Source: Erysipelotrichaceae bacterium NK3D112 (GTDB lineage Bacteria > Bacillota_I > Bacilli_A > Erysipelotrichales > Erysipelotrichaceae). From it: a stretch of 64,000 nucleotides of DNA. Numbering within the stretch: the stretch's first letter is position 1; each line of letters starts with the position of its first letter. The stretch covers positions 62,001 through 126,000 of the forward strand of contig JNJQ01000001.1 of NCBI GenBank assembly GCA_000701725.1, in the 5' to 3' direction. Below the pieces are notes generated by a model that was not told where the DNA came from, did no database searches, and worked only from the letters and a program-made list of their open reading frames with translations. Below, in pieces: positions 1,751-63,261 of the stretch. The position numbers and the translations under genes are program-made.

Positions 1751-2518
1751 ATGAGCACACAGGTGATCGATACCTTCCAGAGAGTGGAGGACAAATACAG
1801 GATGACCCGTCAGGAAGCACGTGAAATCCTTGAGGAAATGAAAGGCCATATCAAAAAGGACGACTACTTCCAGTACACGGTCCACAACATCTACTATGAC
1901 TCAAAGGATGCGCAGATGATCATCTCCTCCCTGAACAAGGATAAGTTCAAGGAAAAACTGAGACTGCGCTGCTATGAACAGCCTTCGCACGATACGATGT
2001 GTTTCCTTGAAACAAAAAAGAAATACGGCGACATCGTTTACAAAAAGAGAATCACCTTAAGCCACGCCGAGGCGATGGCCTATCTGAATCACGGGGTTCC
2101 CCATCATGTTCATAACAACACGGCCGAAGAGATCGACTTTCTGAAAAACTATTATCAGGTTGAACCGAAAACCCTCATCCTCTATGACCGCACCTGTTTC
2201 TCATCGGTAAGCGAAGCGGATGTCAGAATCACCTTCGATGCCAATATCCGGGCAAGGATTGATGATATCAGCCTGACGGAACGAGGCGATGAGCAGCTGC
2301 TGATCGGAGAGGATGTGGTGATGGAGATCAAAGCGATGAACCGCTATCCGATGTGGCTGGTGGAAATCCTTTCCAGAAGAAAGCTTTACAAGCAGTCCTT
2401 CTCCAAATACGGCATGAATTACAGAAACAGCGCAAATGAACTGTGTCAGAAAGACACACCGGCATATATTTACACAACAGAGAAAAAGGAGAATCAGTTA
2501 TGTTCAGTTCAGTATTGA
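1751..2518 (+). CDS. VTC domain protein, polyphosphate polymerase-like
   Basis: A 255-residue cytosolic protein of the VTC superfamily, whose eukaryotic member Vtc4 makes polyphosphate from ATP inside a tunnel of basic residues. The expected landmarks are present in order: VEDKY near the N-terminus, KLRLRCYE near residue 76, FLETKKK soon after, YDRTCFS, and VVMEIKAM near residue 195. The ATG at 1751 is set by a strong AGGAGGT seven bases upstream; a GTG at 1742 lies inside that ribosome site and is rejected. It overlaps the DUF4956 gene by 19 bases, a pairing seen in many bacteria and taken to mean the two proteins act together at the membrane. Polymerase activity in bacterial VTC proteins of this type is inferred, not shown by the sequence. 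Confidence 0.88.
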   Translation: MSTQVIDTFQRVEDKYRMTRQEAREILEEMKGHIKKDDYFQYTVHNIYYDSKDAQMIISSLNKDKFKEKLRLRCYEQPSHDTMCFLETKKKYGDIVYKKRITLSHAEAMAYLNHGVPHHVHNNTAEEIDFLKNYYQVEPKTLILYDRTCFSSVSEADVRITFDANIRARIDDISLTERGDEQLLIGEDVVMEIKAMNRYPMWLVEILSRRKLYKQSFSKYGMNYRNSANELCQKDTPAYIYTTEKKENQLCSVQY

Positions 2519-3174
2519 CCGGTACGGCTTCCGGATTATCAGCCGCTTCCGTCGCGATCTGTGTCGCGGCATCGCTCGCATGCGGGCTCATTCTTTCCCT
2601 CACATACAGAAAATGCGAAAACCCTACAAAGAGCTTCACAACAACCGTTGCACTTCTTCCGGTGATTGTCATGATGGTGATCATGATGGTCAACGGCAAC
2701 CTCGGCGTCGGAGTTGCCGTGGCGGGCAGCTTCTCCCTGGTCAAGTTCAGATCGCTTCCCGGCAAGGCAAGTGACATCCTGATCATCTTCGCTTCCATGG
2801 GTATCGGTCTTGCGACCGGCATGGGATATGCGGTATTCGCCATCGCCGCATCCGTCGTATTCGCACTCTGCTACTTCGTGTTCTCAGCGACATCCCTGTT
2901 CAGCTCGGATCAGACTTACAGAAGCTTACGCATCACGATTCCCGAAGATCTTGACTATATCGAAAGCTTCAATGACATCTTTGAGAAATACACAAAGAAG
3001 GCCGAAGAACAGGCAGTCCGCACCATCAACCTTGGCACCATGTACCAGGTGACCTATGATATCAGCCTGAAAAACGCGTCCGATGAGAAGGCAATGATCG
3101 ATGCCATCCGTGTACGCAACGGCAATCTTCCCGTCATTTCATCCAGGGCCGCCACCGTTTCGGCGGAACTGTAA
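2500..3174 (+). CDS. DUF4956 membrane protein
   Basis: A 224-residue integral membrane protein with four hydrophobic segments in the first 135 residues (about 15-35, 48-65, 72-90, 92-130) and a soluble C-terminal domain of about 90 residues. The conserved GSFSLVKFRSLPGKASDI stretch between membrane segments is typical of DUF4956. The start at 2500 has AAAGGAG seven bases upstream and sits inside the end of the VTC gene; an upstream ATG at 2443 gives an N-terminal tail that lies within the VTC coding region and has no ribosome site. DUF4956 is repeatedly found next to VTC genes; it may anchor or channel the VTC product, but its biochemical role is unknown. Confidence 0.87.
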   Translation: MFSSVLTGTASGLSAASVAICVAASLACGLILSLTYRKCENPTKSFTTTVALLPVIVMMVIMMVNGNLGVGVAVAGSFSLVKFRSLPGKASDILIIFASMGIGLATGMGYAVFAIAASVVFALCYFVFSATSLFSSDQTYRSLRITIPEDLDYIESFNDIFEKYTKKAEEQAVRTINLGTMYQVTYDISLKNASDEKAMIDAIRVRNGNLPVISSRAATVSAEL

Positions 3175-3192: not shown

Positions 3193-3217
3193 TCAGCCTG
3201 CGGGCTGATTTTCTTTT
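3193..3217 (+). terminator. Rho-independent terminator after DUF4956
   Basis: Stem TCAGCC / GGCTGA, loop TGCG, followed by a T-rich tract broken by one C. Confidence 0.75.
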
Positions 3218-3250: not shown

Positions 3251-3259
3251 TGATAACAT
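3251..3259 (+). promoter_or_regulatory. Extended -10 promoter TGATAACAT
   Basis: TGATAACAT fits the extended -10 pattern TGnTAnnnT. The next gene's ATG begins six bases after it, which is about where transcription should start, and there is no Shine-Dalgarno sequence. The transcript would be leaderless. No good -35 box is visible. Confidence 0.5.
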
Positions 3260-3265
3260 TTTTCT

Positions 3266-4102
3266 ATGCTTTATGTAGGAATTGTCTCAACCGTGAGTCT
3301 GGTGCTCTTTGGCACCGCATACAGTTTTCTTTTATACAATGCCCACTTTCAGAACTGGCTGATGGAATGGTTAAGCGCCAAAGCCAATGTGATCCATATG
3401 AAAGAGGAAACCGAACTGAAAGGAAAGCGTTTTTATGTGCCCCGTGAAAACCGCGATATCCGCGTGAATATTTACAATGATTCCAAAGGGGAGGACAGAC
3501 CTGCTGTCTTCTTCGCCCACGGCTCACAATTTGTCGATTCGGATGCCGATGAGTGGGATGACTTCTGCGATTGGTTTGCCAGGGAATTTGACTGTGTTCT
3601 CTTCAGTGTCAATTATTCGAAGATCGGCATTCATGTGACAAGCTATCCGCAGGATGAAATCCAGGACACGATCCGCTATTTCCGTGCCCACAGCAGTGAG
3701 TATGGATTCCATAAAAACAACTTCATGATGATGGGCTTTGAGGCCGGGGCCTATCTTTCCATGATCGCGGGCTTCCAGCTGCTGAGAAGAGGCATCTTTT
3801 CCAGGGGCTTTATCTTTGTGAATCCGTTTGTGGATTATACCAATGTCAGCTTTGCCCAGGCCGGCTACCATCCCCAGCCGCTAGCTCTGATCACACTTGG
3901 CGCGGATGAGATGCGGGAAAAATGGAATGAATATTCCGGTGCCATCCGGGCACAGGATATTTATATGCGGGAATGGGACAGACCCGCTGTTTCAAAGAAA
4001 ATCCTTTACGCACCTTATGAAAAGGCAGAAGGGCAGGAAGCGGAAGACCAGAGGCTTCTTGTCAACTGGCTTCATACACGATTCAATGAATTCGCAGGAT
4101 AA
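3266..4102 (+). CDS. Membrane-anchored alpha/beta-hydrolase-like protein without the serine nucleophile
   Basis: A 278-residue protein with one hydrophobic segment near residues 4-25, probably a signal anchor, and an alpha/beta-hydrolase-like domain outside the membrane. The oxyanion region VFFAHGS is present near residue 82, but the nucleophile elbow reads MMGFEAG, with Glu where Ser, Cys or Asp is expected. So it is probably not a normal esterase; it could bind rather than cleave. The start has no ribosome site and lies just after an extended -10, suggesting leaderless expression. It is followed 21 bases later by an SGNH hydrolase, likely in one operon. The fold assignment is moderately sure, function unknown. 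Confidence 0.65.
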   Translation: MLYVGIVSTVSLVLFGTAYSFLLYNAHFQNWLMEWLSAKANVIHMKEETELKGKRFYVPRENRDIRVNIYNDSKGEDRPAVFFAHGSQFVDSDADEWDDFCDWFAREFDCVLFSVNYSKIGIHVTSYPQDEIQDTIRYFRAHSSEYGFHKNNFMMMGFEAGAYLSMIAGFQLLRRGIFSRGFIFVNPFVDYTNVSFAQAGYHPQPLALITLGADEMREKWNEYSGAIRAQDIYMREWDRPAVSKKILYAPYEKAEGQEAEDQRLLVNWLHTRFNEFAG

Positions 4103-4123: not shown

Positions 4124-5281
4124 ATGAGCGCACAATTCACAAAATGGGCTGCCTGCTGGGGCAATGCCACATCGATTATCAACCAGACGGAATGCACATA
4201 TGCCAAAAACATGACCTACCGCTATCCGGTAAGAATGTGCTTTGACGGCAGCCGCATGCGGATCCGCTTCTCAAATATCGCCGGCACGGAACCGGTCAGC
4301 TTCACCGCAAGCGTGGCGAAAAGCAGCCGCAAAGCCGTGATCAGGGAAGACACAATTGTCAAACTGAGACAGGGCGGCAGCCGCAGAATCGTGATTGAGC
4401 CGGGAAAGGAAGTCACCAGCGATGAGTTTGATTTCGATATGAAGGCAGGGGAATACATCTCAGTTTCCATCCATGTCTGGGAAGCGACCCAGATGAACTC
4501 GGCGGTATTGATCACCGGTCCGCTTTCCGGCGGTTTCTATTCCTATGGCGATCATGAATATGAATCCGTGCTGCCGTTGGATGAGACAAGAAAAACCAAC
4601 TGGTATTTCTTCCTGAACACCATCGATGTCTGGACCGAAGAGAAAAACCATGCCCTGGTATGCTATGGCGATTCCATCACCGCCCAGGACTGGCCGGATT
4701 ATCTCGCGCTGCGTGCATGGGATCTCGGATACCGCGATGTTTCGATTATCCGCAGAGCAATCAGCGGCACCAGAATTCTGAGAGAATACACCTGCAAAAC
4801 CTATGCGGCATATGGCATCAAGGGAGAAACCCGCTTCCCGGTGGAACTCAACACAGCCGGGGTCAGCGCGGTATTGATCCAGCATGGCATCAATGACATC
4901 ATCCATCCGGTCGGGGTGGAAGTGAATCCATGGAGACCGCTCAGCGATCTGCCCACTGCCGAGGAGATGGCCGAAGGCTTTACCGAGTTCTATGTGAAAC
5001 CGGCAAGGGAAATGGGCCTGAAAGTCTATGGAGGAACGCTGATTCCGATCTACGGCTGGCGCACGTACGCATCATTCCGTGAGGAGCTCAAGGATCAGTT
5101 CAACGAATGGATCCGCACAACCGATACACTGGACGGTGTGATTGATTTCGACCTGGCGCTCAGAGACGATAATAATCCATACGCATTCCGTAAGGAATAC
5201 GATTCCGGCGACCACCTTCATCCAAGTGCCGAAGGTTACAAGGCGATGGCTGAAGCGGTGGATACAGAACTTCTCAAATAA
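4124..5281 (+). CDS. SGNH/GDSL-type hydrolase
   Basis: A 385-residue protein. The first 170 or so residues look like a beta-rich accessory domain, and the rest is an SGNH hydrolase domain: the nucleophile block GDSIT near residue 182, the GIND block near residue 258, and the catalytic DHLHPS block near residue 365. Proteins of this layout are usually esterases acting on acylated sugars or carbohydrate side groups. No signal peptide is visible, so it is probably cytoplasmic. The ATG has CAGGAGA about nine bases upstream. It sits between the hydrolase-like membrane protein and an ABC exporter, all in one direction with short gaps. Confidence 0.88.
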   Translation: MSAQFTKWAACWGNATSIINQTECTYAKNMTYRYPVRMCFDGSRMRIRFSNIAGTEPVSFTASVAKSSRKAVIREDTIVKLRQGGSRRIVIEPGKEVTSDEFDFDMKAGEYISVSIHVWEATQMNSAVLITGPLSGGFYSYGDHEYESVLPLDETRKTNWYFFLNTIDVWTEEKNHALVCYGDSITAQDWPDYLALRAWDLGYRDVSIIRRAISGTRILREYTCKTYAAYGIKGETRFPVELNTAGVSAVLIQHGINDIIHPVGVEVNPWRPLSDLPTAEEMAEGFTEFYVKPAREMGLKVYGGTLIPIYGWRTYASFREELKDQFNEWIRTTDTLDGVIDFDLALRDDNNPYAFRKEYDSGDHLHPSAEGYKAMAEAVDTELLK

Positions 5282-5310: not shown

Positions 5311-7134
5311 ATGAGCATGCGCGCACGGGGAGGCAGGAATCAGTTTCTGACTGATGAAGAAAAAAAGAACGCTCCCAAAGTCACCAAGGAACTTCTGCTG
5401 AGAATACTTTCATATCTCAGACCGTACTGGAAACAGATGGCAATTGTGCTTGCGGCCATCATCTGTTCCTCCGTTCTTTCCATTTATCCGAGCATCATCA
5501 CCGGCAAAATCATCGATGAGGGACTTCTGGCGAAAGATCTCAACCGTCTGGTCTTTCTGATTCTGCTTTCACTGGCCGTGACGCTTGGCTCCAATCTGAT
5601 CGGTGTGCTGGAGAGCTATATGAACACCTGGATTGCCCAGCATATCACTTTTGACATGCGCAATCAGATGTATGAGCATCTTCAAAAAATGCCTCAGAGA
5701 TTCTTTACTTCCAGCAATCAGGGTGACATCATCACCCGCATGACGTCCGATATTTCCGGTGTGCAGCAGATCATCACAAATACCTTCACCAGCATTCTTT
5801 CCAATTCCATCACGCTGATTGTCGCTTTGATCGCGATGTTTCAGAAGAACTGGGTGCTGGCGATCACCGGCATCATCATCGTGCCGCTTTTCACACTGCC
5901 CACCCGCAAGGCCGGCAAAACCAGATGGACACTGACCCAGGAGGCGCAGGCATGCAATGATCAGATCAACGGCATTCTCAATGAAACGCTCTCTGTTTCA
6001 GGACAATTGCTGGTCAAGATCTTCGGCATGGAGAAGTTTGAATACCGCAAATACCGCAAGGCCAATGAGAAGATGATCAATCTGAACATCCGCGAGTCCA
6101 TGGCCGGCAGATGGTTCCGCGTGGTCATCTCCACGGTTTCCTCCGTCGGACCGATGCTGCTGTATCTGGTCGGCGGCATTCTCATGATCCGCTACAACCA
6201 GGATCTGACCGTCGGCGATGTGACTGTGCTTGTCACACTGCTTGGCAGGATGTACGGACCGGTCAACTCACTGCTCAACATCCAGGTGGAATGGATCCGG
6301 GCAATGGCCAACTTCACAAGAATCTTCGGCTACTATGACATGCCGGTGGAAATTGAAAACGCACCCGATGCCATCACACCGAAACAGGCAAAGGGCAATA
6401 TTGAATTCTCCCATGTCTTCTTCCGCTACAATCCGGAGCGGATGATCCTCAAGGATGTCAGCTTCAATCTGAAGTGCGGCCATTCGATTGCCATCGTCGG
6501 TCCTTCCGGTTCTGGCAAATCGACCATGATCAATCTGATTCCCCGTCTTTATGATGTCACAGCGGGCGCCGTGAGATTCGACGGCATTGATGTGCGCAGA
6601 CTTGATCTCGAATTTCTGAGAAGGAATATCGGCATTGTCACCCAGGACACCTATCTGTTCAACGGCACCATCCGGGAAAATCTCATGTATGCCAATGTGC
6701 ATGCAAGTGTTGAGGAAATGGAGGAGGCATGCCGCAAGGCCAATATCCATGATTACATCATGAAGCTGGAAAAGGGCTATGACACAGAAGTCGGCAACCG
6801 CGGTCTCAAGCTTTCCGGCGGTGAGAAGCAGCGTATCTCCATTGCCCGCGTACTGCTCAAGAATCCGGCTGTGATGATATTCGATGAGGCGACCGCATCG
6901 CTTGACTCCATCAGTGAGAAGGCGATCCAGGACGCGATTGATCCGCTGATTGAATCACGCACCAGCATCCTGATTGCCCACAGACTCTCCACCATTCTGG
7001 CAGCCGATGAGATCATCGTGCTCAAGGACGGCGTGATTGTCGAGCAGGGAACCCATAAGGAGCTGGTCAATGCAGGCGGTGTTTATACCGAACTTTACAA
7101 CACCCAGTTCAAACCGCAGATTACCGAAGCCTGA
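5311..7134 (+). CDS. ABC transporter, fused permease and ATPase (exporter type)
   Basis: A 607-residue half-transporter. Residues about 25-330 form a six-helix type IV exporter membrane domain; the C-terminal part is the ATPase with Walker A GPSGSGKST (near 397), signature LSGGEKQR (near 500), Walker B VMIFDEATASLD and the switch AHRLS. Since only one half is encoded here it probably works as a homodimer, or pairs with a partner encoded elsewhere. Substrate cannot be read from the sequence; such proteins export drugs, lipids or peptides. GGGGAGG lies seven bases before the ATG. Cotranscription with the SGNH gene, 29 bases upstream, is likely. Confidence 0.92.
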   Translation: MSMRARGGRNQFLTDEEKKNAPKVTKELLLRILSYLRPYWKQMAIVLAAIICSSVLSIYPSIITGKIIDEGLLAKDLNRLVFLILLSLAVTLGSNLIGVLESYMNTWIAQHITFDMRNQMYEHLQKMPQRFFTSSNQGDIITRMTSDISGVQQIITNTFTSILSNSITLIVALIAMFQKNWVLAITGIIIVPLFTLPTRKAGKTRWTLTQEAQACNDQINGILNETLSVSGQLLVKIFGMEKFEYRKYRKANEKMINLNIRESMAGRWFRVVISTVSSVGPMLLYLVGGILMIRYNQDLTVGDVTVLVTLLGRMYGPVNSLLNIQVEWIRAMANFTRIFGYYDMPVEIENAPDAITPKQAKGNIEFSHVFFRYNPERMILKDVSFNLKCGHSIAIVGPSGSGKSTMINLIPRLYDVTAGAVRFDGIDVRRLDLEFLRRNIGIVTQDTYLFNGTIRENLMYANVHASVEEMEEACRKANIHDYIMKLEKGYDTEVGNRGLKLSGGEKQRISIARVLLKNPAVMIFDEATASLDSISEKAIQDAIDPLIESRTSILIAHRLSTILAADEIIVLKDGVIVEQGTHKELVNAGGVYTELYNTQFKPQITEA

Positions 7135-25451: not shown

Positions 25452-25460
25452 TGATAACAT
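25452..25460 (+). promoter_or_regulatory. Extended -10 promoter of hflX
   Basis: TGATAACAT, the same nine bases as at 3251. The hflX ATG follows after eight bases with no Shine-Dalgarno sequence, so the mRNA may be leaderless. Confidence 0.55.
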
Positions 25461-25468
25461 AATGCAGT

Positions 25469-26707
25469 ATGAAAAAAGCAGTCCTAGCAGCCATCAGAAT
25501 TGATCAGAGTGAAAGTGAATTCAATGCGGCGCTTGATGAGACCGAATCTCTTTGCGAAGCATGTGAGATCACCGTGATTGCCCGTTTTACACAGACCTCA
25601 CGCTCAATTGATCCCAACACCGGCTTCCGAAGCGGCAAGCTCAAAGAGCTCCATGCCTATTGTGCGGAATGCGATCCGGATCTGATCATCTTTCACAATC
25701 CGATCAGTATTCAGATCAGCGAACGCGTTTCCTCGTTTACCGGCGTCAATGTGATTGACCGCACCGCATTGATTCTTGATATTTTTGCCAAGCGTGCACG
25801 TTCCACCCAGGCCAAATTACAGGTGGAAATGGCCAGGCTTCAATATGATCTTCCCAGAGTGCTCAATTCGACAGCCGATGAATCCGGCCATGAGCGGGGC
25901 GGCAGCGCTTATAACCGCGGTGCCGGTGAAATGCGCTCCAGGCTGGTGCAGAGAAGATACAGCGAGCGGATCGCCTCACTCAAAAAGGATCTGGAAAAGA
26001 TCCGCAGACAGAAATATCAGGACGAGAGAAGACGAACCCGCACGATGATGCGAAGGGTAGCCTTAGTCGGATATACCAATGCCGGCAAGAGCTCGCTCAT
26101 GAATGCGATGATCAAAACAGGCAGCGGACAGGGAAGCGATGTGTATGAGGAGGACATGCTGTTTGCGACGCTTGATACCAGCGTGCGCATGATTCCCTTC
26201 AAAGGAAGAAAGTTTCTTCTTTATGACACGGTCGGCTTTGTCTCTGATCTGCCCCATACCCTGATCGATGCTTTCCAGGCCACTCTGGATGCGGCAAGGG
26301 ATGCGGACCTGCTGATCCATGTGATTGATGCGTCTGATCCCCAGTATGACCGCAAAACGGATATCACCGAAGATACGCTCAGACAGATCGGCGCAGCTGA
26401 TATTGATGTGATGAGAGTATATACAAAGAGCGATCTTTTAAAGGGTGATATTGTGATGGAGCAGGGCATTCTGATTTCCGCGAAGACCGGTGAGGGCATG
26501 GAGGAATTCATGGATGCCATGATCAGCCGCCTTTATCCGGCGGAAGAAACCGTACGGGTATTGATTCCCTATGATAAAATGGCGATGGCCGATTCCTACC
26601 GGAGTGTTCTTCTGATCAAAGTGATCGAACATACCGATGAGGGAATGATCTGCGAACTGAGCGGACCGCAGCGATATACAGCAGCTTTCAAAGCAATGCG
26701 CATATAG
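25469..26707 (+). CDS. hflX: GTPase HflX
   Basis: A 412-residue ribosome-associated GTPase that splits or rescues stalled ribosomes. Residues about 1-190 form the HflX N-terminal domain with the helical arm, including SGHERGGSAYNRGAGE near 139-154. The GTPase domain has the P-loop GYTNAGKSS at 201-209, the switch DTVGFVSDLPH near 253 and the base-recognition TKSDL near 313. No ribosome-binding site is seen before the ATG; it lies just after an extended -10. The aminopeptidase gene begins 16 bases later, with its own ribosome site. Confidence 0.95.
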   Translation: MKKAVLAAIRIDQSESEFNAALDETESLCEACEITVIARFTQTSRSIDPNTGFRSGKLKELHAYCAECDPDLIIFHNPISIQISERVSSFTGVNVIDRTALILDIFAKRARSTQAKLQVEMARLQYDLPRVLNSTADESGHERGGSAYNRGAGEMRSRLVQRRYSERIASLKKDLEKIRRQKYQDERRRTRTMMRRVALVGYTNAGKSSLMNAMIKTGSGQGSDVYEEDMLFATLDTSVRMIPFKGRKFLLYDTVGFVSDLPHTLIDAFQATLDAARDADLLIHVIDASDPQYDRKTDITEDTLRQIGAADIDVMRVYTKSDLLKGDIVMEQGILISAKTGEGMEEFMDAMISRLYPAEETVRVLIPYDKMAMADSYRSVLLIKVIEHTDEGMICELSGPQRYTAAFKAMRI

Positions 26708-62752: not shown

Positions 62753-63244
62753 ATTTGAAGTCAGTCCGTTTTCCTTGAGCCATGTCTCAACATCGGCAGG
62801 AGTCAGCGGGATTTCCCCGTCATATTCAAGCGAGTTGAGCACGGTCGGCTCCCCGTCGATGACGCTGACGGCCGCAAAGGCGGGATAGCGCTGGATGCCC
62901 CAGTCGGCGGCCAGTTTCTCCGTGAGCATATTGTCCTGAAGGGCGGTGATATCCACGGTTTCAATGATCCGGTCAATCTGCAGCTGGGTATCAACCGTGA
63001 CAGATGCGAGAACCGTGTTTTTGACATAGACGCAGTCATTGTCATTGCGGGAATAGAAGAAGAGATAATGGGTGACGGATTCACCGGTGGAAAGGATATA
63101 TTCCTTCAGGGAATCATAGTCCAGGTATGCACTCTCCTCGACGACATTCGCATCGGTTTTCGGCTCATAGATTCGAAACGCGACAACCGCGATACTGTAA
63201 ACTGCGATCAGACACAGCAGTGAATAAACAACCTTTTTAAACAT
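62750..63244 (-). CDS. Membrane-anchored thioredoxin-like protein
   Basis: A 164-residue protein with a hydrophobic anchor at residues 5-25 and an extracellular thioredoxin-like fold. Where thioredoxins have CxxC it reads NDNDCVYV near residue 69, with a single Cys. The cis-Pro segment QRYPAFAAVSV near residue 117 is present, as is the C-terminal helix TPADVETWLKENG. It may bind or transfer thiols by one Cys, or be a non-redox family member. The extended -10 (TGGTAAAAT) ends eight bases before the start. Confidence 0.7.
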   Translation of the reverse strand: MFKKVVYSLLCLIAVYSIAVVAFRIYEPKTDANVVEESAYLDYDSLKEYILSTGESVTHYLFFYSRNDNDCVYVKNTVLASVTVDTQLQIDRIIETVDITALQDNMLTEKLAADWGIQRYPAFAAVSVIDGEPTVLNSLEYDGEIPLTPADVETWLKENGLTSN

Positions 63245-63252
63245 ACTTCACC

Positions 63253-63261
63253 ATTTTACCA
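63253..63261 (-). promoter_or_regulatory. Extended -10 promoter of the thioredoxin-like gene
   Basis: Minus strand TGGTAAAAT, same as upstream of plsY. Start would fall within a few bases of the ATG. Confidence 0.52.

Follow-up and report, generated by a model that had tools for sequence, protein, structure and literature searches.

What has become of an esterase-like protein that carries glutamate where a nucleophilic serine is expected, and whose gene starts just behind a promoter element beside a pair of VTC and DUF4956 genes? The locus lies in a stretch of 64,000 nucleotides of Erysipelotrichaceae bacterium NK3D112 (the window, meaning the whole DNA analysed here), which belongs to a 3.15-Mb assembly (G000 below). 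The features needed for the argument are the following, in window positions.

1751-2518, + strand: neighbouring gene of a VTC-domain protein, linked to the gene under study in 7 of 21 genomes
2500-3174, + strand: neighbouring gene of a DUF4956 membrane protein (family scan, neighbourhood)
3193-3208, + strand: terminator-like hairpin with a T tail, between the DUF4956 gene and the clade-A gene
3251-3259, + strand: extended -10 element TGATAACAT, separated from the ATG by six bases; predicted promoter of a leaderless mRNA
3266-4102, + strand: clade-A gene for a predicted membrane-anchored pseudo-hydrolase of HSL fold, 278 aa (ORF, Pfam, AlphaFold2, PDB matches)
3269-3337, + strand: uncharged N-terminal transmembrane helix, residues 2-24 (AlphaFold2, charge count)
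3740-3742, + strand: codon GAG of Glu159, the residue that replaces the nucleophile in GFEAG (residues 157-161; elbow at 3734-3748)
3905-3907, + strand: Asp214, aligned with the catalytic acid; 15 of 20 rows have D or E there, the others A, P, R, Y or a gap
3995-3997, + strand: Lys244, at the place of the catalytic His (alignment)
4124-5281, + strand: SGNH/GDSL hydrolase gene, 21 bases downstream of the clade-A gene (ORF, family scan)
5311-7134, + strand: MsbA-like ABC exporter gene (family scan, neighbourhood)

A sequence-only reading of this DNA had recognised an alpha/beta-hydrolase fold in the product, and profile scores, structure prediction and structural matches bear it out. In a Pfam profile scan the protein hits Abhydrolase_3 with an E-value of 3.9e-12 (46.8 bits, against a curated cut-off of 25) and BD-FAE with 6.1e-11, also over the curated cut-off; all 20 clade-A members scanned match Abhydrolase_3 at E <= 0.01. 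The AlphaFold2 model (pLDDT 89.2, pTM 0.86) places a helix at residues 2-24, a second one at 26-42 and then the alpha/beta-hydrolase domain. Its top PDB matches are HSL esterases with Z about 23, tied with rice GID1 (Z 23.4, rmsd 3.2, 234 residues), and a profile search by sequence reaches the same families, with GID1 at 2.3e-06. The bacterial HSL-type carboxylesterases EST2, TrLipB and EstDL136, likewise members of Abhydrolase_3, give Z values of 23-24, and Aes, another carboxylesterase of this type, is among the Foldseek matches; the His of the HGG(G) loop is common to these enzymes and to the window protein. The protein belongs by descent to the Abhydrolase_3/HSL superfamily and has its alpha/beta-hydrolase fold.

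Matches at E <= 1e-5 are present in 36 of the 70 genomes of the genus, and neighbourhood, alignment and tree split those examined into three groups. Clade A (support 100/100), which includes the window protein, consists of 21 rows from as many genomes, one in each, all within one Erysipelotrichaceae genus of gut and rumen bacteria; relatives at 94% and 79% identity come from two Erysipelotrichaceae MAGs. Clade B (22 rows, 96/93) includes the nearest paralogue of the window protein, and clade C (15 rows, 100/97) consists of ordinary HSL-type esterases. A search of 315 genomes of the order at E <= 1e-28 found no clade-A member beyond the genus; its other matches either fall into clades B and C in the tree or are far lower-scoring sequences left out of it, and the two matches outside the genus, G071 and G256, both keep the Ser. 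The tree omits duplicates (L008, L009, L118, L129, L132; L002 and L115 denote the same gene), the misread fragment L138_1137, the weak matches L032-L034 and further matches of the genus, such as G213:C20 and those weaker than about 1e-10. Also omitted is a set of more remotely related hydrolases (L029_2415, L031_590, L005_2412, L134_2677, L135_550, L136_3343, L137_483, L138_507), whose eight rows all read G-F-S-A-G. The long rows L027, L133, L140, L020 and L004 may be misplaced in the tree.

The replacement of Ser by Glu at the nucleophile elbow is confirmed, at residue 159; the number 149 first given for it was wrong by ten. Across clade A the site holds Glu in 16 members, Gly in three, Thr in one, Gln in one and Ser in 0 of 21, so no orthologue contradicts the replacement. 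The column of the catalytic His has another residue in 20 of 21 members, the exception, L020, being possibly an alignment effect. Both the Ser of G-x-S-x-G and the His after beta8 that characterise HSL-type serine esterases are thus missing, which supports the earlier suggestion of a pseudo-enzyme. In the same alignment Ser, Asp and His are all kept in 15/15 clade-C rows, and clade B has Ser in 15 rows, Thr in six and Gly in one, with the catalytic His in 0/22. The long beta6-beta7 stretch that forms part of the cap is present in 13/15 clade-C rows and absent from clades A and B; the clade-C rows L030 and L139 have a short stretch despite an intact triad. Compared with HSL-type carboxylesterases, clade A therefore lacks nucleophile and His, has a variable acid and carries no long cap insert. 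Haloalkane dehalogenases and epoxide hydrolases combine an acidic nucleophile with a His base; clade A has the acid at the nucleophile site but not, with the exception mentioned, the base. Titles and abstract openings in the open-licence literature gave no fitting paper on a pseudo-enzyme of the alpha/beta-hydrolase fold whose elbow carries Glu.

Loss of catalytic residues is also what a decaying pseudogene would display. The ORF is, however, open in 21/21 genomes, and dN/dS (NG86) in the five pairs tried is 0.073, 0.150, 0.093, 0.065 and 0.129. Clade-A genes are under purifying selection, and this test refutes the pseudogene reading. An assembly error fares no better, the change from Ser to Glu taking more than one base and Glu recurring in separate assemblies, with either GAG or GAA as its codon; we regard decay or misassembly as highly improbable. 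Since Glu is found in 16/21 members and Ser in none, at dN/dS values of 0.065-0.15, the Glu of GFEAG is not there by chance.

Selection has acted unevenly on the domain. In the alignment A1, made of 20 clade-A rows with the divergent L027 left out, the active-face loops at the C-terminal strand ends have 15/61 invariant columns against 0/27 in the opposite-face loops (one-sided Mann-Whitney test on entropy, p = 0.003, for loop sets that we chose from predicted secondary structure and for rows that are related). The invariant set surrounds the pocket mouth: His85, Asp93/95/98, Tyr117, His123, Tyr127-Pro-Gln, the elbow glycines, Asp190-Tyr191, Ser195 and His202-Pro203. None of the 16 columns in the acid and His loops is invariant, and the Glu159 column ranks only 90th of 278 by entropy. 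Because invariant columns gather in the active-face loops, the best-conserved region of the fold, while the Glu159, acid and His positions vary, the cleft is conserved whereas triad and Glu are not strictly required. At the level of sequence, a conserved cleft with a lost triad reads as the pattern of a binding pseudo-enzyme.

A conserved active-site face is also compatible with an unusual enzyme. Its centre could have been rebuilt, with Glu159 as nucleophile or base, or with Ser195, His202 and Asp190 as a new set. These three residues are invariant in 20/20 A1 rows and present in the divergent 21st member too, and Glu itself is kept by most of the clade. Moreover, in L017 and L018 the change of Glu159 to Gly is accompanied by Gly86 to Asp, as if an acid were retained in the cleft, though these represent a single lineage. 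Against a rebuilt centre, Gly, Thr or Gln replace Glu159 in 5/21 members, its column is far from the most conserved, and glutamate is not known to serve as nucleophile in any alpha/beta hydrolase. We consider such an active enzyme unlikely. Its most elaborate form would be a membrane-bound alpha/beta-hydrolase of undescribed chemistry, with a new cleft centre assembled from Glu159 and His85, His123, Ser195, His202 and Asp190 and with an acid able to move, and to this we assign quite a small chance.

The binding pseudo-enzyme that we prefer is predicted to face the cytoplasm. The membrane anchor proposed earlier is supported by a single hydrophobic N-terminal helix (residues 2-24), and the surface-binding role proposed with it is disfavoured by the charges around this helix. 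All 20 A1 rows have no Lys, Arg, Asp or Glu before or inside the helix and 4-9 Lys/Arg within the 32 residues after it. The positive-inside rule, a rule of thumb, predicts from this bias an N-out/C-in topology with the hydrolase domain in the cytoplasm, the window protein itself having few charges near the helix.

Gene context was the next source of a possible function. The gene order first described is correct: the clade-A gene follows those for VTC and DUF4956 and precedes those for the SGNH/GDSL hydrolase and the MsbA-like ABC exporter. This invites the reading that the protein is part of a VTC/DUF4956 module for polyphosphate or the envelope. VTC and DUF4956 genes are close 5' neighbours of the clade-A gene in the window and in 6/20 other clade-A regions, which makes 7/21, some contigs ending near the clade-A gene. 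Six of the VTC-linked members form one clade (100/99) and the seventh, G241, falls outside it; the SGNH and ABC genes are also present in six of the seven linked regions, the contig ending early in one. In this VTC-linked subclade they could share the clade-A transcript. In 13 of the 14 unlinked genomes VTC is on another contig, and in the remaining one, G231, none was found at E <= 1e-20. VTC is found in 53/70 genomes of the genus and clade A in only 21, and in the window the predicted terminator at 3193-3208 and the gene's own -10 element intervene after DUF4956, which speaks against a transcription unit shared with it. The association with VTC is refuted as a conserved one and the polyphosphate link is unsupported; we have rejected the module reading on neighbourhood and VTC searches and leave it a slim probability. 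Outside the VTC-linked subclade the downstream genes differ. No partner gene common to all clade-A members was seen in the neighbourhoods, so gene context assigns no function.

Other ORFs of these neighbourhoods are worth recording. In G238 (L037) a 705-aa lipoprotein-like, repeat-rich ORF separates the clade-A gene from DUF4956, a further interruption of the putative module in that genome. The ORF at 851-1615 of the window, just upstream of VTC, combines a GNAT acetyltransferase domain with a C-terminal portion weakly like inorganic pyrophosphatase (E 0.02, below the cut-off). A homologue of it lies 5' of VTC in 4/6 other VTC-linked regions and was not found within the sequenced stretch examined in the other two.

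The start of the gene was suspected of being leaderless, and this is strongly supported by the position of TGATAACAT, by the lack of a Shine-Dalgarno sequence before the window gene and by the same arrangement in its relatives. Because TGATAACAT ends six bases upstream, transcription is expected to start on the ATG. TANNNT stands 6-7 nt before the ATG in 21/21 clade-A genes and in 0/22 of clade B, and TGNTANNAT at the same gap in 16/21 against 0/22. An SD-like motif precedes 20/22 clade-B genes and 1/21 clade-A genes, in the latter upstream of the -10; L017 and L018 have purine runs (AGGA/GGAG and GAGG) 1-2 nt before the ATG, outside the SD-like count. Clade-A starts were chosen by nearness to the aligned start, ahead of the promoter test, except in L027, where an ATG took the place of an earlier TTG. 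From these sequences, clade-A mRNA probably begins at the ATG, that is, without a leader.

The arrangement extends beyond this family. In 48 stretches (405,642 bases, 410 ORFs, 688 ATG candidates), the gap from the extended -10 to the ATG is 6-7 in 17 cases, 1-5 in none and 9-17 in three, with a broad distribution from 18 on. Since 7 of the 17 cases at gap 6-7 are not clade-A genes, leaderless starts appear to be a more general trait of the genus. In the whole window genome the pattern at gaps 5-8 was counted 124 times and its reversed form, a weaker control that the gap histogram supplements, 32 times. By our own count, 15 of the first 30 such places stand at the head of an ORF that is 140 aa or longer and is preceded by fewer than 60 open codons. 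Elsewhere in the window, at 25452-25471 (+ strand) and 63242-63261 (- strand), an extended -10 lies 8 bases before the ATG of ORFs of 412 aa and 164 aa, which are possibly near-leaderless.

In the available part of the survey PMC3160421, leaderless genes have TANNNT about 12 bp upstream, and in Firmicutes they occur mainly in Lactobacillales and Mycoplasma. Clade A resembles the Lactococcus-type leaderless genes described there in having TG-n-TA..AT next to the start codon, and differs in its host, Erysipelotrichaceae being beyond the groups named in that part of the survey. For leaderless genes in Erysipelotrichaceae, titles and abstract openings returned only unrelated papers.

Clade B, the nearest paralogue (39% identity, hydrophobic N-terminus), has rpoC or glmS as neighbour, and no row shows a -10 at the start codon; its member in the window genome (G000:C6) lies directly after rpoC. 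Upstream of it (L002, 1425-1465) is TGTGATAGCATTTTTCT, near-identical to TGTGATAACATTTTTCT of the window and followed by an SD-bearing leader; judged by sequence, both perhaps descend from a common ancestral promoter. In G154 (L003/L129) the clade-B gene is flanked by two ORFs that, by motif, we take to be VanY-type D-Ala-D-Ala carboxypeptidases. Could the clade-A protein be a structural partner of this SD-led paralogue in a mixed membrane complex? Clade B is present in 19/21 clade-A genomes, only three clade-B genomes are without clade A, and both proteins have a hydrophobic N-terminal segment. Shared descent alone could explain the co-occurrence, however, and the loci are unlinked. We hold this partnership to be doubtful, if worth keeping in mind.

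The closest parallel to the binding pseudo-enzyme is GID1. According to the available part of PMC3531792, GID1 is a receptor without enzyme activity whose presumed origin is an HSL that lost the His; it retains the Ser, and a helical lid covers its ligand. Clade A shares with it the HSL fold (Z 23.4 over 234 residues) and the missing His, and differs in having mostly Glu (Glu159 in the window) in place of GID1's Ser, no beta6-beta7 lid insert and an N-terminal transmembrane helix; their sequence similarity is family-wide only. Clade B, which keeps Ser or Thr in 21/22 rows, resembles the GID1 state, and clade A stands one step beyond.

We privilege, with somewhat better than even confidence, the hypothesis that the clade-A protein is an HSL-family pseudo-hydrolase at the inner face of the membrane whose role is to bind a ligand or partner in its cleft and not to hydrolyse a substrate. 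Its ancestor would be a Ser-Asp-His esterase of the HSL (Abhydrolase_3) family. If clade C is taken as the root of the tree, the simplest course of events would have the catalytic His lost in an ancestor common to clade A and the SD-led clade B, after which clade A would have lost the Ser too, mostly to Glu, and gained its leaderless promoter. The mouth of the pocket would have been retained and the chemistry given up. The uncharged N-terminal helix would tether the domain to the cytoplasmic side of the cell membrane, and a ligand or partner might be held in the former active-site cleft in the manner of GID1, with Glu159, placed by homology, lining that cleft. For clade A as a whole we infer the cytoplasmic side, the absence of activity and the binding or scaffolding function.

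Clade A would then belong to the HSL-derived pseudo-enzymes, a known class. If the hypothesis is true, this family would parallel in bacteria the evolution that led to GID1, its steps still visible inside one genus: intact Ser-Asp-His esterases, a paralogue without the His and with the Ser mostly kept, and clade A without the Ser as well. The paralogue pair, present in the same cells, with the -10 at the ATG in clade A and an almost always SD-led start in clade B, would offer a ready comparison for leaderless translation, in a Firmicute group for which the available part of the PMC3160421 survey did not report it.
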